Assembly (NCBI GenBank): GCA_028694115.1
Contig: JAQUUB010000151.1
Coordinates: 1 to 8,333 of the forward strand
DNA: 8,333 nucleotides
From: Lachnospiraceae bacterium
GTDB lineage: Bacteria; Bacillota_A; Clostridia; Lachnospirales; Lachnospiraceae
Reading direction: 5' to 3'
Under the pieces are notes generated by a model. That model was given only the letters and a program-made list of their open reading frames with translations. It ran no database searches and was not told where the DNA came from. A program made the position numbers and the translations under genes. Positions 1-8,333 of this stretch are shown here, piece after piece (position 1 is the first letter of the stretch; every line of letters starts with the position of its first letter).

Positions 1-272
1 GATATGAATGCCATAATCACGCTGAAGAGCATATGTAATCTTGTAAGCACCGAGGCGCTTATTATAATCTGCATAAATCTGAAGAATTGCTTTTGCAATA
101 TCCTGATTTTCCTTGGTGCGTTCAGCTGGTTTTGAATTGTAGTGCTTGTAATAGGTACTTCTGCTAACACCTAATACCTTGCATAGGATTTTGATATTAT
201 GCTAAAAACATAGCTTATGAACAGCTTCTAGTCGTTGCTTGAGTGTGGCGTGAAGATGGCAATCGCTTTTTT
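1..272 (-). pseudogene. IS3-family transposase OrfB, N-terminal fragment with in-frame stop
   Basis: In the -1 frame relative to orfA the minus strand reads through the A7 run into a typical OrfB N-terminus. The HTH_21-like segment includes VLGVSRSTYYKHY, then NQDIAKAILQIYADYNKR and LGAYKITYALQRDYGIHI, and the frame is still open at the window edge. The frame is broken by TAG at 204-202, within LCF*HNIKILCKVLG, where related proteins usually have a glutamate; a single G-to-T change from GAG would explain it. The catalytic DDE domain lies beyond position 1 and cannot be judged. IS3 OrfB is normally made as an OrfAB fusion by -1 frameshifting, and this stop lies about 24 codons after the shift site. 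It would therefore abolish the fusion transposase unless suppressed. It could also be a sequencing error, but the reading is clear. Confidence 0.75.
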
Positions 273-521
273 TAGTATTAAGAGTTCTTCTTCAAGTTGG
301 GCATTACGTTTTTGAAGATCCTTAACCTGTTTGGCAGTAAGAACTTCACCATCATCCGTTTTAACGGTTGAATATTGTTTGATCCAGCGTGTAAGAGCTG
401 TAAGTGATACTCCGTATTCTTTACAAAGTGTGGACTGGGCTTTGCCGCCGGATTGATAAAGGTTAACGAGGGTACGTTTAAAGTCCTCATCGTACCGATT
501 TCCAGTTTCATTTGTGGACAT
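228..521 (-). CDS. IS3-family transposase OrfA
   Basis: This 97-residue protein is the DNA-binding subunit of an IS3-family transposase, which recognises the terminal inverted repeats. Residues about 10-50 form a helix-turn-helix domain of the HTH_8/transposase_8 type, with recognition part CKEYGVSLTALTRWIKQY. Residues about 62-90 form a leucine-zipper coiled coil (LTAKQVKDLQKRNAQLEEEL) ending in LKKAIAIF, where the frameshift run is located. The length is normal for OrfA. The ATG at 521-519 is supported by AGGAGG at 536-531 on the minus strand with 9 bases of spacing. The gene itself looks intact, but its orfB partner has an in-frame stop. OrfA made alone is known to regulate transposition in this family and could still bind related ends in the genome. 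Confidence 0.9.
   Translation of the reverse strand: MSTNETGNRYDEDFKRTLVNLYQSGGKAQSTLCKEYGVSLTALTRWIKQYSTVKTDDGEVLTAKQVKDLQKRNAQLEEELLILKKAIAIFTPHSSND
266..273 (-). promoter_or_regulatory. Programmed -1 frameshift site of the left IS3 element
   Basis: The minus strand carries seven A residues followed by G (A7G, containing the canonical A6G slippery heptamer) at the codons for LKKA near the end of orfA. The orfB frame is the -1 frame and is open through this run, so slippage here would produce the OrfAB fusion. No strong downstream stimulatory stem is obvious. Confidence 0.75.
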
Positions 522-892: not shown

Positions 893-3800
893 ATGAATAG
901 AATTGAAGTTTTGATAAAAATACAGCGGATAATTGAAGGGTTAAAAAAAGAAACCGTACAAGTTGAAACAAGAATTAAAAATATTTTAGCATGCATTGAT
1001 AATGATGATTTCATATCTGAGTCGAACATTCAAGATGCAATTACTCATTTGAAAATGATTAATCAAATGCAGAAAGAATGTAAAGAAAATTATCTTGGTT
1101 TTATGGAATCCAAAGAATTCCCGGATAGCGTGATAAAGGTAATTACTGAGGTGCAAGATAAAGCAAAAACATTGTTTGCAAATCAGAAATACAAAAGTGC
1201 AATTGAAGTATTTTTTAGCTTGCATTCAGCACAGGCAGTGTGTGAGTCTGAGCTAAAAGATTTGAAACATGAACTAAGTATGGATGAAATTTTTAAACTT
1301 TCTGAAAAAGAATGTAAGGAAAAATACAATAAGTATCTAGATTTTGTCAATGCTTTTAAAGAATCAGATCCAGAAAAATTGTTGGACTATATTCAGAAAC
1401 TAAAACCGCATTTTGATGCAAGATTAGTGGTTGAAGTTATGCAGAAGAGTCTTTTTATGGAAGAAAACTCAATAACATGTAAAGAAGCTCATGAACAGAT
1501 TATTGCTGAAGAAGAACTACATATTTCTGATTATAAAAAGGACAACACAGCGGAAGAGTATACTAACGAAGAGCAGCCTGCTGAGAAACAAGAAAATACT
1601 GGTGATGAGACGCCGGAAGGAAATGCATATGAGCATAAAATTCATCGATTGATTGAAAATGAACACTTCATCACAGAGTCTGATTCCCAAAAGGCATACA
1701 AGACTTTTGGAGTAAAACTGTTTAAAAGCGACATTAATGGTTCGCTTAATGCTATTAGAGTTGCAATTCTAAGATGTGTTTTTAAATTTGAATGTGTAAC
1801 ATGTAAGATTCTGCAATTAGATATCCCATATGATAAGGCGCTTATTGAAAGAGAGAGTAAGTATTTAATTAACAAGGGATATTTGAAGGAATACATTATT
1901 GATGGCACGAATGCTTTATTTTGTTTGACAGCGAGAGGCTTAAAGGCATTTTCCACAAAGGATTCGGCTTCTTATTTGCAGCTTAGTTCACCAAAAACAA
2001 AAAAAGAGATATTATTTGATGGAATTGATAGTGCAATATTATATTTAGTGAGAGCTAAGGCGTTAGTCCATGCAGTAGAATCTTTAGATACTATAAAATT
2101 TTCCTGTAAAGAAATAATTTTTGACAAAACAATGATTTTATGCGTATGTGATAAGGATGCTTCAGAGTATGTGTACACCACAATTCTTAATCATGATATC
2201 ATGGCATGCGAGAAATTTCTTGAAGAAATTGGAGCTTTTATTGAAGGCATGGAGGATGTAGAGAGTTCACGTAGATATGTACTGGGCTATAATTCTGAAC
2301 ATTCACAAAATCTCAAGGCTATCTTAGCGAAAAAGCTGAGATGCGAGAATTTGGGTTGCTATGTTTTAAATGAAGACATATGGTATGAAATGGATGATCA
2401 CACACAGGAAGTTATTTCTGACAAAAACAATCAGTTGGAAATAGTAGAAGATGCTACACTGGTAATGAATGATAAAAGTTCCGAGGATGAACTTGTAGTG
2501 TCTGAACACAATGTAATCCGTGATGATGGGGATAAAGAAAAGCAAAATAGTAATGTGCCAGTAGATGAAATTGTTAGATTAGAAAAGGAAGAAACGTTAT
2601 TACAGAAGATACCTGAGTCAATGTTAAAGGAAGAAAATCATCATATTGGTGTCAAACCAGTTGATAATGCTGAAGCAATTAAGCAGTGCGTGGAACTCTT
2701 AAAACCAAAACAGGAAATTGTTGATGATTTTCAAAATATGATTTGTGAAGATAAGTTGTATTGTGCAACAGCTTATTTAAAGGCGGCTGCTGTTTGCGAT
2801 GCACAGATTTTACCTATTTATAGAAAGCTGGCATATGCAGTAAATGATCCATTGGAAAAGTGTAGCTATTCATCAGATGCACTCATGGGATTGTATTTTG
2901 ATGAAAGTTCAGTTTTAAATGATTATTTTTTGGCAGCGGCATTAGTACGAAATTATTTTATGGATCATATCGGGTATGATTATAGTATGCAGCAGTTGCA
3001 GTCAATGACTAAAGGAAGTGCTGTGTTGGCTAGATATACGAGTCTTAATAAAATTGCATATGATCTTTTCGAGTTTAAGAATAAGGTGCATAGTGGTATA
3101 GATAAATATGCTGATTATCGCGCAAAGGATAAAGTTAATTGGGACGAAAAATTAATCTCGACTAGAAATGAGGCAAAGGGACAATATGATGCATATGTTT
3201 TAGGACAGATTGTAGAGCGTGGTTCCCATAAGCGTTTTATTGAAACGCAAAAACTTATTTTTGCGAAAGAAGGAGATCTTGCCGCATATTTAAAAGTTGT
3301 TGTTGATAATGACAATGGATTTTTGGATTTAATGAAGGAATTTCTTCAGAGTATGTTCATAAAAACAGAGACGCTTATTGATCAAGTTAATATTGATGAC
3401 GATAAGATTAATGCATTTATTGACAGTTATTGGGCAAAGGCAGGTCAACAAATGATGGTTGTTCGGAAAACTTCAGACTTAATGGGGAGTTTTCGAATGA
3501 ATTTGTTTAAGCGAGTTCAGAAAGTTGTGAAGGTACTATGTGAATGGACAGTTCTGATGAAAAGTTCTGAAATTGATGAGGATGACAGAAGCTTTGCAAG
3601 TTACAAAAAAGTTAGAGATGTTCTGCTTGGCAATATGGATTCCATTATCGATACGCTTCAAGATGGGTCGGAAAAAAAACGTCTTAAAGAAGAAATTGTT
3701 GGCAGGAAAGTACTGTTGTTTACAATTTTAGAATTAAAGAAAAGACTTACTGGTGAGTATACAGAAGCTGAAAGTAAATATTTCTATATTGGTTTCTTAA

Positions 3801-6280
3801 GAAACACAAAAGTGCTTCTGAATGATGAATATCTTCCTAATATTGTTGAAAGAGTAAATGAATTACCAGAATTTTTTCCTTTAGAACGAATTTTTACTCA
3901 TTCACAAGAACCAGAAATTGAAGAAATTGAGCGTATTCAACAAATTTTTGATAGCGACGATGATTATGGAACCGCCCAGCTTCTTCTAAAGTATATAAAA
4001 AGTAAGGGAATAGATGAATCCGAGTTGGATATTCTTCAGTTGTCAATTGAGGAATCAATAAAAGGTGCTAAAAAACGTGCTGAATTAAGAAAAGATGAAT
4101 TCATTGAAAATCTTGAGTTGGCACAGAGTTATGGACAGATAGAAAACGCTCTTGAAGATAAGAAGGATATAATTCTTCAAAGCGTTAATGCGTGGTTTGC
4201 GCGATGTAGCGAAAGCGGTAATTTTGGTTTCTTTTATAGAATTCTTAAAGCATTCGATGACAAAATCAAAAAAGAGGCTAAAGGCAGAGCGGAAACAATC
4301 AGGGAGGAATTAGAAAGCTATTGCAGTATCTATCAAAATTTATTAGATAATGAACGTAGCAAGCAATGTATTACAAAAATTAAAAATATGATAGAGCAAC
4401 AGAATTATACTGTTGCGGAGGACTTGATTAACCGTTTAGTAAATGATGAAGTGGAATCCGAAATAGATTTACTCCAAAATGATTATTTACAGAAATTTAT
4501 GGATAGTCATGACTATAATTCAAAAAGAATACATGATACTGGACAGATGCTAAGTCGATTGGTTGATGCCAAGTCAAAAGCAAAAAAAGACATCAAAGGT
4601 GGTACTCGTTTAGTTGAGTACTGGCTTTCTAATGGTGGCCGGCTTGGCGTGCAGAAACTTGAAAATCTCCTTTTTACTCTGGGATTTGCTGTCGGAAAAA
4701 TTCAAGAGCAAAACAGAATCGCTGAAAAAATTGAAACCTATAATGTTTTCTTGAAGAAACCAGAGAATGGTCGAAGAAATAACTATAAACACCCAATAGC
4801 AGCTTTTGGTTCAAGAGCAGTTGAAGATGGGTTCCGCGTTGTTTGCCTATACGGAAAGTATGACGCAGATACTCTCTTAGCCACATTCAAAGAGATTGGC
4901 AATGCAAAGCACACATTAATTTTTCTTGATTTTGTATTGTCACTTAGTGAAAGACACCGCTTAGCACGGAAAATTAAAGCGGAAATTCCAGATAAAATTT
5001 TTGGAGTGGTAGACAGGGTTGTATTGATGTATTTGATTAATAATTACGAGGTGACATCAATAAATCAAATGTTAATGTCTATAATTATGCCATTTTCCTA
5101 TTATCAACCATATGTTGTTAAATCAGCGGATGTTATGCCACCAGAAATTTTTATTGGACGAAAGGACGAACTCAATAAAATTGAGGCGCCATTAGGGGTT
5201 AATATTGTATATGGGGGCAGACAGCTTGGTAAGTCTGCTTTACTGCGTATGGCTAAGACAGATATTAACTTTGATGAAAATGGCGATAGAGCAGTACTGG
5301 TTGATATAAAGGGGCTGGATTACAAAAAGGCTGCGCGTAAGGTTGCACAAGCTTTAACTGATGAACATGTGTTTACTCATAATGTTGATTCAGATGATTG
5401 GGATGAATTAGCGCGTGAGATCAAGAAACGCTTGATTTCTGCTAAAGAACAAAAGATTCCATATCTTCTGTTACTGATGGATGAGGCAGATGTATTTATT
5501 GAAAGCTGTGAAAAGGTGGACTTTCATCCTTTTGATGCTTTGAAGGATATTCAAAGTATTGGTCAGGGAAGATTTAAGTTTGTAGTTGCAGGGTTGAGAA
5601 ATATTGTTCGTTTCAAACGAAATATTGCGCTTGGAAACAATAGTGTTCTTACACATTTGTCATCCATTACTGTTAAACCATTTAATGTTATGGAAGCAAG
5701 AGAATTGTTGGAAATTCCGTTGTTTTATCTTGGATTGCGTTTCACGAAGGAAAAAGATGCGCTTGTTTCAATGATTTTAGCAACAACTAATTACTTCCCT
5801 GGGTTACTTCAAATGTATTGCGCTAAATTGTTAGAAGCAATGAAAAAGGGTGATTATGCAGGCTATAATGAAAAAGATACTCCGCCATATGATGTTCAGG
5901 AAAAACACATAAAGAAGGTTCTTTCAGAAGCTGGCTTCCAACAGGATATTCGCGAAAAATTTATGATAACGTTAAAAGTTGACGAGGATGATTATTATTA
6001 TGTTATTGCATTATTAACAGCATATTTATATTATATTGACAACGATAAAAACGGTTATTCTTCTGGGGACATTATTGAAGCCGCCAGAGAATTTGATGTT
6101 GCTAAAATCCACCATTTATCTATAGATAAATTAGCTGCGCTTATGGAAGAAATGAAAGAATTGAACGTGCTCCGGGTTACGATGAATGACAGGTACTTGT
6201 TCACAAGATACAGCTTTTTTCAAATGATGGGAACTAAAAATCAGATAGAGGAAGATATCATGAACTATATGGGGGAATAA
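893..6280 (+). CDS. Giant STAND/ORC-like P-loop ATPase, candidate defence or conflict-system sensor
   Basis: This 1795-residue cytoplasmic protein has no signal peptide or membrane segment. The order is: charged helical N-terminus (1-200); acidic linker (about 203-250); winged-helix-like domain (about 282-353, ending LTARGLKAF); alpha/beta segment (about 372-505); second acidic linker (about 506-610); long mostly helical, charged region (about 615-1290); alpha/beta segment with TLIFLDFVLS and VVDRVVLMYL (about 1314-1380); then the ATPase. The ATPase has IFIGRKDEL at 1419-1427, Walker A GGRQLGKS at 1441-1448, Walker B LLLLMDEAD ending at 1533, a sensor-like VVAGLRN at 1564-1570 and a lid containing FPGLLQMYC. 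A C-terminal winged helix follows (about 1721-1780). Both Walker motifs look competent. GR-x-x-EL before the P-loop and a winged helix after the lid are typical of the MNS/ORC/STAND branch of AAA-like NTPases, often conformational switches in conflict systems. I do not recognise a named gene. The role as sensor or motor for the downstream partner is inference; DNA binding through the winged helices is an alternative or addition. Confidence 0.9.
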   Translation: MNRIEVLIKIQRIIEGLKKETVQVETRIKNILACIDNDDFISESNIQDAITHLKMINQMQKECKENYLGFMESKEFPDSVIKVITEVQDKAKTLFANQKYKSAIEVFFSLHSAQAVCESELKDLKHELSMDEIFKLSEKECKEKYNKYLDFVNAFKESDPEKLLDYIQKLKPHFDARLVVEVMQKSLFMEENSITCKEAHEQIIAEEELHISDYKKDNTAEEYTNEEQPAEKQENTGDETPEGNAYEHKIHRLIENEHFITESDSQKAYKTFGVKLFKSDINGSLNAIRVAILRCVFKFECVTCKILQLDIPYDKALIERESKYLINKGYLKEYIIDGTNALFCLTARGLKAFSTKDSASYLQLSSPKTKKEILFDGIDSAILYLVRAKALVHAVESLDTIKFSCKEIIFDKTMILCVCDKDASEYVYTTILNHDIMACEKFLEEIGAFIEGMEDVESSRRYVLGYNSEHSQNLKAILAKKLRCENLGCYVLNEDIWYEMDDHTQEVISDKNNQLEIVEDATLVMNDKSSEDELVVSEHNVIRDDGDKEKQNSNVPVDEIVRLEKEETLLQKIPESMLKEENHHIGVKPVDNAEAIKQCVELLKPKQEIVDDFQNMICEDKLYCATAYLKAAAVCDAQILPIYRKLAYAVNDPLEKCSYSSDALMGLYFDESSVLNDYFLAAALVRNYFMDHIGYDYSMQQLQSMTKGSAVLARYTSLNKIAYDLFEFKNKVHSGIDKYADYRAKDKVNWDEKLISTRNEAKGQYDAYVLGQIVERGSHKRFIETQKLIFAKEGDLAAYLKVVVDNDNGFLDLMKEFLQSMFIKTETLIDQVNIDDDKINAFIDSYWAKAGQQMMVVRKTSDLMGSFRMNLFKRVQKVVKVLCEWTVLMKSSEIDEDDRSFASYKKVRDVLLGNMDSIIDTLQDGSEKKRLKEEIVGRKVLLFTILELKKRLTGEYTEAESKYFYIGFLRNTKVLLNDEYLPNIVERVNELPEFFPLERIFTHSQEPEIEEIERIQQIFDSDDDYGTAQLLLKYIKSKGIDESELDILQLSIEESIKGAKKRAELRKDEFIENLELAQSYGQIENALEDKKDIILQSVNAWFARCSESGNFGFFYRILKAFDDKIKKEAKGRAETIREELESYCSIYQNLLDNERSKQCITKIKNMIEQQNYTVAEDLINRLVNDEVESEIDLLQNDYLQKFMDSHDYNSKRIHDTGQMLSRLVDAKSKAKKDIKGGTRLVEYWLSNGGRLGVQKLENLLFTLGFAVGKIQEQNRIAEKIETYNVFLKKPENGRRNNYKHPIAAFGSRAVEDGFRVVCLYGKYDADTLLATFKEIGNAKHTLIFLDFVLSLSERHRLARKIKAEIPDKIFGVVDRVVLMYLINNYEVTSINQMLMSIIMPFSYYQPYVVKSADVMPPEIFIGRKDELNKIEAPLGVNIVYGGRQLGKSALLRMAKTDINFDENGDRAVLVDIKGLDYKKAARKVAQALTDEHVFTHNVDSDDWDELAREIKKRLISAKEQKIPYLLLLMDEADVFIESCEKVDFHPFDALKDIQSIGQGRFKFVVAGLRNIVRFKRNIALGNNSVLTHLSSITVKPFNVMEARELLEIPLFYLGLRFTKEKDALVSMILATTNYFPGLLQMYCAKLLEAMKKGDYAGYNEKDTPPYDVQEKHIKKVLSEAGFQQDIREKFMITLKVDEDDYYYVIALLTAYLYYIDNDKNGYSSGDIIEAAREFDVAKIHHLSIDKLAALMEEMKELNVLRVTMNDRYLFTRYSFFQMMGTKNQIEEDIMNYMGE
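6271..6276 (+). promoter_or_regulatory. Ribosome binding site of the second gene, inside the end of the first
   Basis: GGGGGA lies in the last codons of the ATPase gene, 6 bases before the ATG at 6283. The first gene stops at 6278-6280, so ribosomes ending there can restart two bases later. This indicates translational coupling and a fixed expression ratio for the two proteins. Confidence 0.7.
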
Positions 6281-6282
6281 AA

Positions 6283-7350
6283 ATGGATAAGCTATGGTGG
6301 GAAAAAATAACCAATGCCAATGTCTTTATAAATATGGTTGTTGATACGGTTTTGTCTGAAAAGAGTATAGTGCTTGTATTGCCGGATTATGTGCCGTGGT
6401 GTCAAAAATTATATGATACTATTGAAACGAAAATTTCAAAACAGAATTCAAAAAATTCTTTTGATTTTATTAATTCGCCTAAAGAGAATGTTGGTGAGTT
6501 TCTCCTTCACAAATACTGCAAAGAAGAAAAACGAGTTCAATATCGCCCAACTAAGACATATGCACGTTTTCTTGCTGAAAGCGATGATATTGTACTGAAT
6601 GATAGATATGTATGGGTTCAAAATATCCCTGAAAATTTATTTGATGGGTGGGTAGATTTTTTATCAGATTATCATAAAAATATGCGAAAAGATGTTTCGC
6701 CTGCAGTTTTTATCTTGGAAACAAACAATGAGACTTTGATGCGGAAAACAAAAAGAGGTATAAAAAAAATTGTCTATGATAAGCAGATGAATTTCTTTGA
6801 TACATATACTTTTTGTGCATTGGCAGTTTCTGGTATGTCCATAAAGATACATTTGAAAAACTATCTAGCTGAGTTGGTATCAAACATATGTGGAGATGAT
6901 ATTGAATTATGTGCACATTGCATTAAGCGTGGAAAGCAGTTTTTATTGAATCCGTTGTGTGTGATTTCTGATTTGAAGTTAAAAGAATTTCGAAGTAATG
7001 GCAGTAATTTTGAATTTGTTCTTGATGATGAAATTATTATTAACAAGCTAATCTGGAAAACACAAATCAAGACCATATTTCCCGTTATTGAAGATTATCG
7101 TGGCGAATTTATAGCAAAATACCGTTTAGATATTAATAAGCAGTTACCGATTAAAAATTCTAATGGAGAAGAGTTTACGGAACCAGAGGAAGTTGAAATT
7201 GGTACGTTACACTATATGGTAGTTAAAGATTTATTTACTGTTGAAGAAATACAAAATAATAAACTGTATCAGTTTAAGAAAGCTAGAAATACACTTGCGC
7301 ACTTAAAGGTATTAAATTTGGAAGAAGTTGATAGAATTTTAGGAGAATGA
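6283..7350 (+). CDS. Partner protein of the giant ATPase, with a C-terminal HEPN-like Rx4H motif
   Basis: This is a 355-residue soluble protein that I do not recognise by name. It opens with DKLWWEKI and a helix, followed by a hydrophobic strand SIVLVLP (28-34) and PW (38-39) where an ATPase would have its P-loop, but no GK[ST] is present. A second strand, SPAVFILETN (139-148), resembles the sensor strand of AAA-type folds. Residues about 187-230 form a helical lid-like part with several cysteines (C203, C210, C213, C226). The C-terminal 100 residues (about 256-355) begin IWKTQIKTIFPVIEDYR and end with FKKARNTLAHLKVL, in which R335 and H340 fit the Rx4-6H motif of HEPN RNases, with the usual polar residue after the arginine. 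The start is fixed by GGGGGA 6 bases upstream and by coupling to the preceding gene. My reading is a P-loop-less partner or effector controlled by the giant ATPase. The HEPN assignment is tentative, since RN-x-LAH also occurs as a purely structural helix. Confidence 0.85.
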   Translation: MDKLWWEKITNANVFINMVVDTVLSEKSIVLVLPDYVPWCQKLYDTIETKISKQNSKNSFDFINSPKENVGEFLLHKYCKEEKRVQYRPTKTYARFLAESDDIVLNDRYVWVQNIPENLFDGWVDFLSDYHKNMRKDVSPAVFILETNNETLMRKTKRGIKKIVYDKQMNFFDTYTFCALAVSGMSIKIHLKNYLAELVSNICGDDIELCAHCIKRGKQFLLNPLCVISDLKLKEFRSNGSNFEFVLDDEIIINKLIWKTQIKTIFPVIEDYRGEFIAKYRLDINKQLPIKNSNGEEFTEPEEVEIGTLHYMVVKDLFTVEEIQNNKLYQFKKARNTLAHLKVLNLEEVDRILGE

Positions 7351-7412
7351 TTGAGAGAGTTGAATTTTTGTGAAACTAAAAAATCTGATATAAAATATAG
7401 GAATAGTTTCTG

Positions 7413-7441
7413 AAGGGGAGAACCGATTTGGTTCTCCCCTT
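7413..7441 (+). terminator. Strong hairpin closing the operon, lacking its T-tract
   Basis: AAGGGGAGAACC (7413-7424) and GGTTCTCCCCTT (7430-7441) form a perfect 12-bp stem with the five-base loop GATTT, 62 bases after the stop of the second gene. The position and shape are those of an intrinsic terminator, but the sequence after the stem is ACCAGC rather than a run of T. The minus-strand exit (CAGAAAC) also has no T-run. The adjacent IS remnant begins exactly here, so the original T-tract may have been replaced. Termination efficiency is therefore uncertain. Confidence 0.6.
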
Positions 7442-8189
7442 ACCAGCATACTACAGGTATTTCATAAATTCCTCGATCCAGTTCATCTGGCGAATGAAAG
7501 GAATATAGGTTAAAATATTCATTTTTAAGTGTATTATAAAAACGCTCCATTGGCGCATTATCATATGGACAACCTGCACGGCTCATGCTTTGCTGCAAAC
7601 GATTTTTCTCGCAAAAATTATTGAAATCCCTTGATGTAAACCGGCTTCCTTGGTCGCTGTGAAAAATGATACCTTTTTCTGGCTTATGTCTTTTTAATGC
7701 GATTGTAAGCGTAGTTATCGCCAGTTCGGTGGTGATATGATTGCCATTTAGTGTCGCCACTACGGAACGATCATATAAATCAATTATTGTACAGTTATAG
7801 CGCATTGTTCCATCTTTTTGAGGAAGATACGTAACATCTGTACACCATATTTTATTTGGAGCATCTACTTTAAAGTTCTGGTTCAAAAGGTTTGGAAACG
7901 CTTTGTGGACAGTGCCTTTTACATAATCAGGTTTCCTTCTACGAACAACGGAACGTAGGCACAGTTCTTTCATATATTTGTAAACAGTTATGCAAGAATA
8001 ATTAATATTACACTGTTCAAAATAATCATGCATCATTCGATAGCCAGGGACACCATCATTTTTATGATAAATTTCAACGATTTTTCGCTCTACCCTTGCT
8101 TTGTCTTCGTGATATTGATATTTCCTGTTTTTTATGTAATTGTAGTAAGCATTCGGATAAATGTTGAATCTTCTAAGAAGCCATCTCAA
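7440..8189 (-). CDS. IS3-family transposase OrfB, C-terminally truncated
   Basis: This is the catalytic DDE subunit of an IS3-family transposase. Counting from the TTG at 8189, residues about 1-60 are an HTH_21-type region with KNDGVPGYRMMHDYF, followed by an rve integrase core. The core has D118 in IWCTDVTYLP, D179 in FHSDQGSRFTS and E215 in DNAPMERFYNTLKNE, giving the expected DD(35)E spacing. The frame is open further upstream to the slippery run at 8264-8270, as expected for an OrfAB fusion, so TTG 8189 is probably not the biological start. After GIYE (240-243) the family normally continues with about 30 residues containing a YN...RPH motif. Here only IPVVCW follows before TAA. All three catalytic residues remain, but the tail and the terminal repeat are lost, so the element is probably immobile. 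Confidence 0.85.
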   Translation of the reverse strand: MRWLLRRFNIYPNAYYNYIKNRKYQYHEDKARVERKIVEIYHKNDGVPGYRMMHDYFEQCNINYSCITVYKYMKELCLRSVVRRRKPDYVKGTVHKAFPNLLNQNFKVDAPNKIWCTDVTYLPQKDGTMRYNCTIIDLYDRSVVATLNGNHITTELAITTLTIALKRHKPEKGIIFHSDQGSRFTSRDFNNFCEKNRLQQSMSRAGCPYDNAPMERFYNTLKNEYFNLYSFHSPDELDRGIYEIPVVCW

Positions 8190-8230
8190 GCCGAATTCCT
8201 TATTGCTTTTCTGGATGAACTGGTACTGAG

Positions 8231-8333
8231 CTAATCGATTTCCTTCGCAAAGAACGCCGCCGCTTTTTTTAAGAAGGCATTTTCCTTTTGTGCCTCTGCA
8301 AGCTCTTTTCGTAGGCGTTTGATTTCTTCATAA
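8231..8333 (-). CDS. IS3-family transposase OrfA, C-terminal part (cut by the right edge)
   Basis: The minus-strand frame from 8332 reads YEEIKRLRKELAEAQKE, then NAFLKKAAAFFAKEID, and a TAG stop at 8233-8231. This is the leucine-zipper C-terminus of an IS3-group OrfA, which mediates dimerisation. The N-terminal helix-turn-helix lies outside the window. The A7G run at 8270-8263 falls in the LKKA codons, the usual place for the switch to OrfB. Nothing in the visible part is damaged. Confidence 0.85.
   Translation of the reverse strand, partial: YEEIKRLRKELAEAQKENAFLKKAAAFFAKEID
8263..8270 (-). promoter_or_regulatory. Programmed -1 frameshift site of the right IS3 element
   Basis: Seven A residues followed by G on the minus strand, within the orfA codons for LKKA. 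The -1 frame continues without a stop through RLAQYQFIQKSNKEFGLRW into OrfB, so the fusion frame is intact here, unlike in the left element. Confidence 0.75.

Follow-up and report, generated by a model that had tools for sequence, protein, structure and literature searches.

Four known systems come close in design to the gene pair described here. The nSTAND2 two-gene system, which is a prediction, is an operon of two STAND-type ATPases, one active and one eroded, and the eroded one bears effectors that vary, most often GT4 or a HEPN RNase (Kaur et al. 2021, eLife 70394, PMC8195603). In BREX the AAA+ domain of BrxC, an ORC-type ATPase, binds the inactivated AAA+ domain of BrxB; BrxB bridges BrxC to the nuclease PglZ, and its contact alters the ATPase and DNA-binding behaviour of BrxC (PMC13326643). 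The DUF499 ATPase of Type-1 BREX-related systems (Ava_2192) possesses an N-terminal Swt1-like HEPN domain (PMC3710099, PMC12839542). Finally, the pPIWI-RE systems comprise a triad in which the pPIWI-RE protein is accompanied by an REase and a DinG helicase (Burroughs et al. 2013, PMC3702460); the word ATPase is absent from that text.

The window, that is, the whole stretch of 8,333 nucleotides that was analysed, carries two intact + strand ORFs, one of 1795 aa at 893-6280 and one of 355 aa at 6283-7350. A sequence-only reading had described the second as starting 2 bases past the stop of the first and the whole as flanked by broken IS elements, and both statements hold: the spacing from the stop of the large gene to the partner start is 2 nt, with a G-rich, ribosome-site-like GGGGG at 6271-6275 before that start, and both flanks are IS3-family fragments. 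The layout is as follows.

228-521, minus strand: orfA of the left IS3 fragment (the fragment also has the start of an orfB)
893..6280, + strand: large protein, 1795 aa (ORF; 1177 homologues; model of residues 606-1795, mean pLDDT 87.4)
6283..7350, + strand: partner, 355 aa, degenerate AAA+ plus HEPN-like domain as predicted (ORF; 267 homologues; model mean pLDDT 93.6)
7414..7440, + strand: 11-bp hairpin behind the partner (z -4.44 for 7351-7440; 0 of 200 shuffles as stable)
7440-8189, minus strand: orfB of the right IS3 fragment, lacking the 3' end (matches positions 104-344 of a 369-position profile)

The left orfB has a stop inside and is then cut by the contig end, and the contig end likewise removes the orfA side of the right fragment. 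The promoter which the same reading had placed in front of the pair was not recovered as such, since the window holds 41 promoter-like sites against 34.7 +/- 5.1 in shuffles, which is the chance level; there is a single 9-of-12 promoter-like match at 812-841. Its hairpin is present and stable, but no T run stands behind it and the terminator scan lists nothing at 7414-7440.

We read this gene pair as a two-protein conflict module, probably directed against invaders, in which a trigger sensed by the ATPase leads to the release of a HEPN RNase, and would put the probability of this at roughly 0.6. What is observed is near-obligate adjacency, predicted folds, ATP motifs intact in one protein and a Walker A missing from the other, a conserved HEPN motif, a fast-changing N-terminus and patchy occurrence.

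Homology searches gave 1177 homologues of the large protein and 267 of the partner (E <= 0.001), of which 120 each are listed. The large protein reads, from its N-terminus, as a variable region, a helical body, an alpha/beta domain, an ORC/STAND-type AAA+ ATPase and a winged helix.

893..2707, + strand: fast-diverging N-terminal region, residues 1-605 (identity to relatives)
2708..4684, + strand: helical body, residues 606-1264 (AlphaFold2 model m0febe88af3a4)
4685..5092, + strand: conserved alpha/beta domain before the ATPase, residues ~1265-1400 (conservation, model)
5093..6277, + strand: predicted ORC/STAND-type AAA+ ATPase and C-terminal winged helix, residues 1401-1795
5213..5236, + strand: Walker A GGRQLGKS, residues 1441-1448 (motif and alignment)
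5468..5491, + strand: Walker B region ending DEAD, residues 1526-1533 (motif and alignment)

Residues 1-605 share 8-20% identity with 49 relatives, against 32-53% with 65 relatives for the rest of the protein, and the pairwise medians are 13.9% in the first ~600 residues versus 35.8% in the core. This region is a candidate sensor. Ten of 50 members have a TPR_12 match there (E<=0.1); the window's own N-terminal region has none at that threshold. Within the alpha/beta domain S1307 and D1374 are invariant across 66 sequences.

That the large protein has intact Walker A and B motifs, as had been seen from the sequence, is confirmed by their conservation in relatives. In a 34-member alignment G1441, G1442, Q1444, L1445, G1446 and K1447 of Walker A are invariant and R1443 nearly so, and D1530, E1531, A1532 and D1533 of Walker B are invariant too. 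The string G-x4-GK-[STA], sought anywhere in the protein, occurs in all 79 of the large ORFs tested (one per locus, L050 left out) and in all 120 homologues listed, and the Walker B pattern in 76 of the 79. Based upon the predicted model, the C-terminus is an ORC/STAND-type AAA+ ATPase with lid and winged helix; among solved folds, ORC/Cdc6 subunits come nearest, and the fold list also includes MuB, TnsC and chain 9zll_C of the solved BrxC-BrxB-PglZ complex. These matches, obtained with predicted models as query, show fold and not function. They agree with the earlier description of a STAND/ORC-branch ATPase with a long helical body. The whole protein has no match in Pfam, PADLOC or NCBIfam, and its relatives are mostly unnamed at source or called “hypothetical protein”, “AAA family ATPase” and similar; none of the libraries searched has a name for this large family.

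The partner falls into two parts.

6283..6981, + strand: residues 1-233, predicted ORC/STAND fold without Walker A at the P-loop position
7000..7347, + strand: residues 240-355, HEPN-like helical domain (HEPN_Swt1 in relatives; hhalign)
7285..7302, + strand: RNTLAH motif (R335, N336, H340), HEPN-type R-x4-H (homologue conservation)

As modelled, the N-terminal part is a degenerate copy of the AAA+ fold of the large protein. A G-x4-GK-[ST] string is present in two of 120 listed partners and in five of the 73 partners from the relatives' loci, where it falls just before strand 1 or far downstream and never at the P-loop position. The C-terminal domain is likely an RNA-cutting HEPN. Its RNxxxH is found in 119 of 120 listed homologues, the remaining one having RDxxxH, and as a sequence feature this bears out the suggestion that the partner is nuclease-like. 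The HEPN_Swt1 profile matches five of 30 partner members (best E 3.9e-4) and does not match the window protein; those matches with scores shown all lie below the curated cut-off, which we counted against the conflict-module reading. In hhalign the partner C-terminus aligns to HEPN with a probability of 79-88%, though over only 35-36 columns around the motif, a short span that was likewise counted against that reading; the N-terminal half, used as control, reached 0.4% against 79% for the C-terminal domain. The whole partner has no Pfam or PADLOC match, and its only NCBIfam match, to CmeU, was disregarded as an identity at E 0.25. Sequence searches of the PDB with the window proteins returned nothing beyond five matches (coiled-coil, design and regulator chains), which at E 0.1 or worse were taken as chance. 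The absence from PADLOC of a fitting model for either protein was likewise counted against a conflict module.

The ORC/Cdc6 folds, the presence of MuB and TnsC in the list and the winged helix behind the ATPase might also indicate a DNA-handling system akin to the ATPases of replication initiation (ORC) or of transposition (TnsC/MuB-like), in which the partner would be structural and its HEPN-like domain would serve for binding only. We consider this very improbable: fold likeness is silent on function, a near-invariant RNxxxH would hardly be needed for binding alone, and no recurrent recombinase or replication gene family adjoins the pair.

The check proposed from the sequence was whether homologues occur as adjacent pairs. 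Two peptide patterns, run against species genomes, picked out 107 relatives, and the 80 best of these were retained. In 79 of the 80 loci the large gene is followed immediately on its 3' side by the partner, so that homologues which are mostly unpaired were not seen. ORF calling found 73 of the partners and missed seven, four of them masked by longer opposite-strand ORFs; six-frame search recovered six, nearly whole in L009, L052, L061 and L066, as a piece at the contig end in L021, and split by a stop in L080, the large gene of which is broken too. In the unpaired exception (L042) the contig stops 211 bases past the large gene. The identities of the two proteins correlate at 0.93, a value uncorrected for shared ancestry.

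Besides the pair there is no constant neighbour: no family occurs in more than 11 of the 80 loci, and the family which reaches 11 is, by eye, an ABC ATPase. A neighbour sample was made by drawing 145 of 246 eligible ORFs (at most two on each side of the pair) at random and dropping two very long ones, which left 143; for the control, 20 regions of three genomes supplied 231 ORFs, of which 143 were used. The commonest Pfam families among the neighbours are ABC, GGDEF, ArsR and metabolic ones (first 25 of 165 listed), and among these 25 none occurs in more than five of the 143 proteins, which counts against the conflict reading. PADLOC families at E <= 1e-5 number 54 for the neighbours versus 32 for the small three-genome control, families and not proteins being counted; mad3, mad8 and AriA, which lead both lists (first 25 shown), we take to be generic models. 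Defence-model matches are thus few and do not clearly exceed those of the control, and this too was counted against the conflict reading. Likely true defence matches near the pair are single cases of Cas10, a DRT-type RT, PDC-S57 and PDC-M72A, with Vsr twice; among the control ORFs there are likewise DarG and several DISARM models.

The distribution of the gene pair is patchy. A partner match was obtained in five of 250 genomes of the Eubacterium ramulus family, two of the five being already-known holders, and in five of 150 genomes of the class of a Selenomonadaceae holder; these prevalence counts depend on the first-look filter of the search tool. In the latter five, one is the holder itself and three are distant or partial matches. 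Eleven genomes have one partner match each, but a Ruminococcus bin contains the pair twice (L022, L065). In a tree made by a quick method and labelled by MAG, rows of Lachnospiraceae, Oscillospiraceae and others are intermixed and one spirochaete row stands amid Bacillota. The mixed tree is compatible with transfer and is no proof of it. The viral contigs searched yielded no relative of the large protein and the phage collection none of either protein, and both results were counted against the conflict reading.

Plasmids do carry relatives of the large protein. A tblastn search of plasmid records gave 23, those listed having 24-30% identity over the ATPase end, and the core of a Thiodictyon relative as query gave 27 records, itself included. 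One could think of a toxin-antitoxin-like or plasmid-maintenance pair, in which the large ATPase would restrain a HEPN partner acting as toxin; two coupled genes, an RNase-like partner and plasmid-borne distant relatives would all suit such a device. It is distinctly unlikely in our estimation. Usual antitoxins are far smaller than a 1795-aa ATPase, which moreover has a fast-changing N-terminus, the partner has an AAA+ domain of its own, and a search of the plasmid collection with the window's partner gave no match.

The Thiodictyon core has 1319 homologues, a set whose overlap with the 1177 of the window protein is uncounted. The ATPase core is present in all 13 distant loci examined, and a profile built without those loci places a HEPN partner directly behind it in eight: Azospirillum, Salinibacter, Thiodictyon, Microvirga, Bradyrhizobium, Agrobacterium, Methylocystis and Streptomyces fungicidicus. 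A separate test of nine downstream proteins in distant loci found the HEPN domain in eight. Profile pC includes the eight distant sequences found, and the independent results are those of pFull and of the nine-protein test. Counted against the conflict-module reading were the five of 13 loci in which the HEPN partner is undetected (Brasilonema, two Streptomyces, Bosea and Euzebya) and the Azospirillum partner, which has RRGMAH where others have RNxxxH.

The front ends of these proteins, whose exchange was the least expected part of the analysis, include pPIWI-RE and sigma-70 regions. Azospirillum, Microvirga and Bradyrhizobium each have the core at the C-terminal end of a long frame (3153-3407 residues) with a pPIWI-RE RNaseH domain (RNaseH_pPIWI_RE in three of seven distant records), MID and X domains also being shown in the Azospirillum fusion, and the partners of these three have an extra AAA_33 domain. 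Sigma-70 regions stand before the core, in the same protein, in Brasilonema and in 11 of the 120 homologues listed for the Thiodictyon query; those fusion proteins which have an organism name are cyanobacterial. Across these fusions the front end is thus swapped, whereas the ATPase is retained, often together with its HEPN partner. The core might then be a general immune chassis, a live ORC/STAND switch and a dead-switch-HEPN effector with an exchangeable front sensor, the fronts being fast-changing and partly TPR-containing in Clostridia, guide-binding pPIWI-RE in Alphaproteobacteria and an entire sigma-70 factor in cyanobacteria. We offer this tentatively and would not bet on it; if true, it would mean an undescribed multi-phylum superfamily in which Argonaute-like or transcription-linked sensing is coupled to RNA cleavage.

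The sigma-70 fusions were counted against the conflict module, since they would suit regulation equally. In a device for regulated stress response or transcription control, and not immunity, the ATPase would read the cellular state and the HEPN partner would trim certain host RNAs; the Clostridia N-terminal consensus, which by eye is winged-helix-like, and neighbourhoods without clear defence genes point the same way. Patchy occurrence, the fast-diverging N-terminus and the pPIWI-RE fusions do not sit well with such a device, and there is no constant neighbour that could be its regulon, so that we regard it as unlikely.

If the pair is the conflict module that we favour, its target would presumably be phage or other mobile DNA. 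The fast-changing N-terminus of the large protein would sense the trigger, and the switch would be an ATP-driven rearrangement of its C-terminal AAA+ domain or assembly. Like BrxB on BrxC, the partner might use its dead AAA+ domain to dock on the live one of the large protein. The HEPN domain, presumably an active RNase, would then cut RNA once it is freed or dimerised in the assembled complex. Were this mechanism true, live/dead AAA+ pairing in the style of BrxC-BrxB would be used alone, with an RNase replacing PglZ, and PIWI-type sensing could be attached to such a pairing. Because it is compact and consists of two genes, the pair is directly testable.

The sequence-only reading could match the pair to no named system. 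This stands as far as Pfam, PADLOC and NCBIfam are concerned, which gave no match for the whole proteins apart from the single CmeU one at E 0.25, but a closely similar design, nSTAND2, has been published (PMC8195603). Apart from the nSTAND2 section of that paper, searches of the open PMC literature turned up no title, abstract start or passage on this family. Judged from the sequences, the pair follows the nSTAND2 plan but differs from the Pfam family of that name. As in the description of nSTAND2, there are two genes with one active and one inactive STAND-type ATPase, and the inactive member carries a HEPN-type motif (profile match 35-36 columns); the window large protein has ~1400 residues before its ATPase. 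GT4, an nSTAND2 effector, is absent among the family matches of 30 partner homologues. Neither window protein matches Pfam nSTAND2 (PF20702) at E<=1, and the profile against the ATPase part alone gave none at E<=10, a search in which HMMER filters drop weak matches. The profile found none in six genomes or records with relatives, where no control genome gave a signal and absence is thus not shown, none in 398 genomes of one phylum, again with no signal from a control genome, and one, below the cut-off, in 28 genomes of another phylum. It is possible that this family and the published nSTAND2 pairs share some members.

With BREX the pair shares a live AAA+ domain, a dead AAA+ partner and a nuclease-like part, with fewer components here. 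Unlike BREX, a HEPN on the partner chain stands in the place of PglZ, and the ATPase is C-terminal in the window protein whereas it is N-terminal in BrxC (PMC12839542). Membership of BREX itself was rejected on gene content, since neither PglZ nor a methyltransferase nor any other gene is recurrent beside the pair in the 80 loci. The DUF499 system has the same theme of a Swt1-like HEPN joined to an ORC-type ATPase; there the HEPN is on the active ATPase, together with a methylase and a helicase, whereas here it is on the inactive one in a system of two genes. The window protein has no PIWI part (no MID or RNaseH_pPIWI_RE by Pfam), unlike the pPIWI-RE systems; three plasmid relatives do carry pPIWI-RE domains before this ATPase core in one frame.

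Directly N-terminal to the ATPase, the large protein of the pair carries a conserved alpha/beta domain (residues ~1265–1400), in which S1307 and D1374 are invariant across the 66 sequences compared. This domain and the features flanking the two genes lie in the window as follows:

1–521, minus strand, IS3-family piece at the left contig end; the start of its orfB contains a stop
4685–5092, plus strand, conserved alpha/beta domain preceding the ATPase
7414–7440, stable 11-bp hairpin without a T run, between the partner gene and the truncated IS3 orfB
7440–8333, minus strand, IS3-family piece at the right contig end; its orfB lacks the 3' end

Instead of acting as a terminator, the hairpin may be part of the IS remnant, or of a small element with inverted repeats. 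The order of the two IS3-family pieces, orfB standing ahead of orfA along the minus strand, is not what a single element split by the pair would give.

Among the relatives, both the large gene and the partner gene are interrupted in one Clostridia contig (L080), and the module therefore seems to be in decay at this locus. Two diverged copies of the pair (L022 and L065), which fall in separate parts of the tree, were found in one Ruminococcus bin (UBA3665, DFJS01); this may reflect bin contamination. The Methylocystis partner (L096) is annotated in the record as a protein of 197 aa starting at 11865. This start looks too late, since the stop-to-stop frame opens at 11322 and runs to 12455 (378 codons).

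Among the more distant relatives, an extra AAA_33 domain is seen in the partner genes of four loci (L085, L090, L091 and L092). In the partners of the three cores fused to pPIWI-RE domains it is C-terminal and above the cut-off; in the Agrobacterium partner the AAA_33 match is below it. Besides the fused pPIWI-RE RNaseH domain, plasmid NZ_CP054617.1 (L085) carries a second, separate one at 573516–574289, located in a 955-residue frame.
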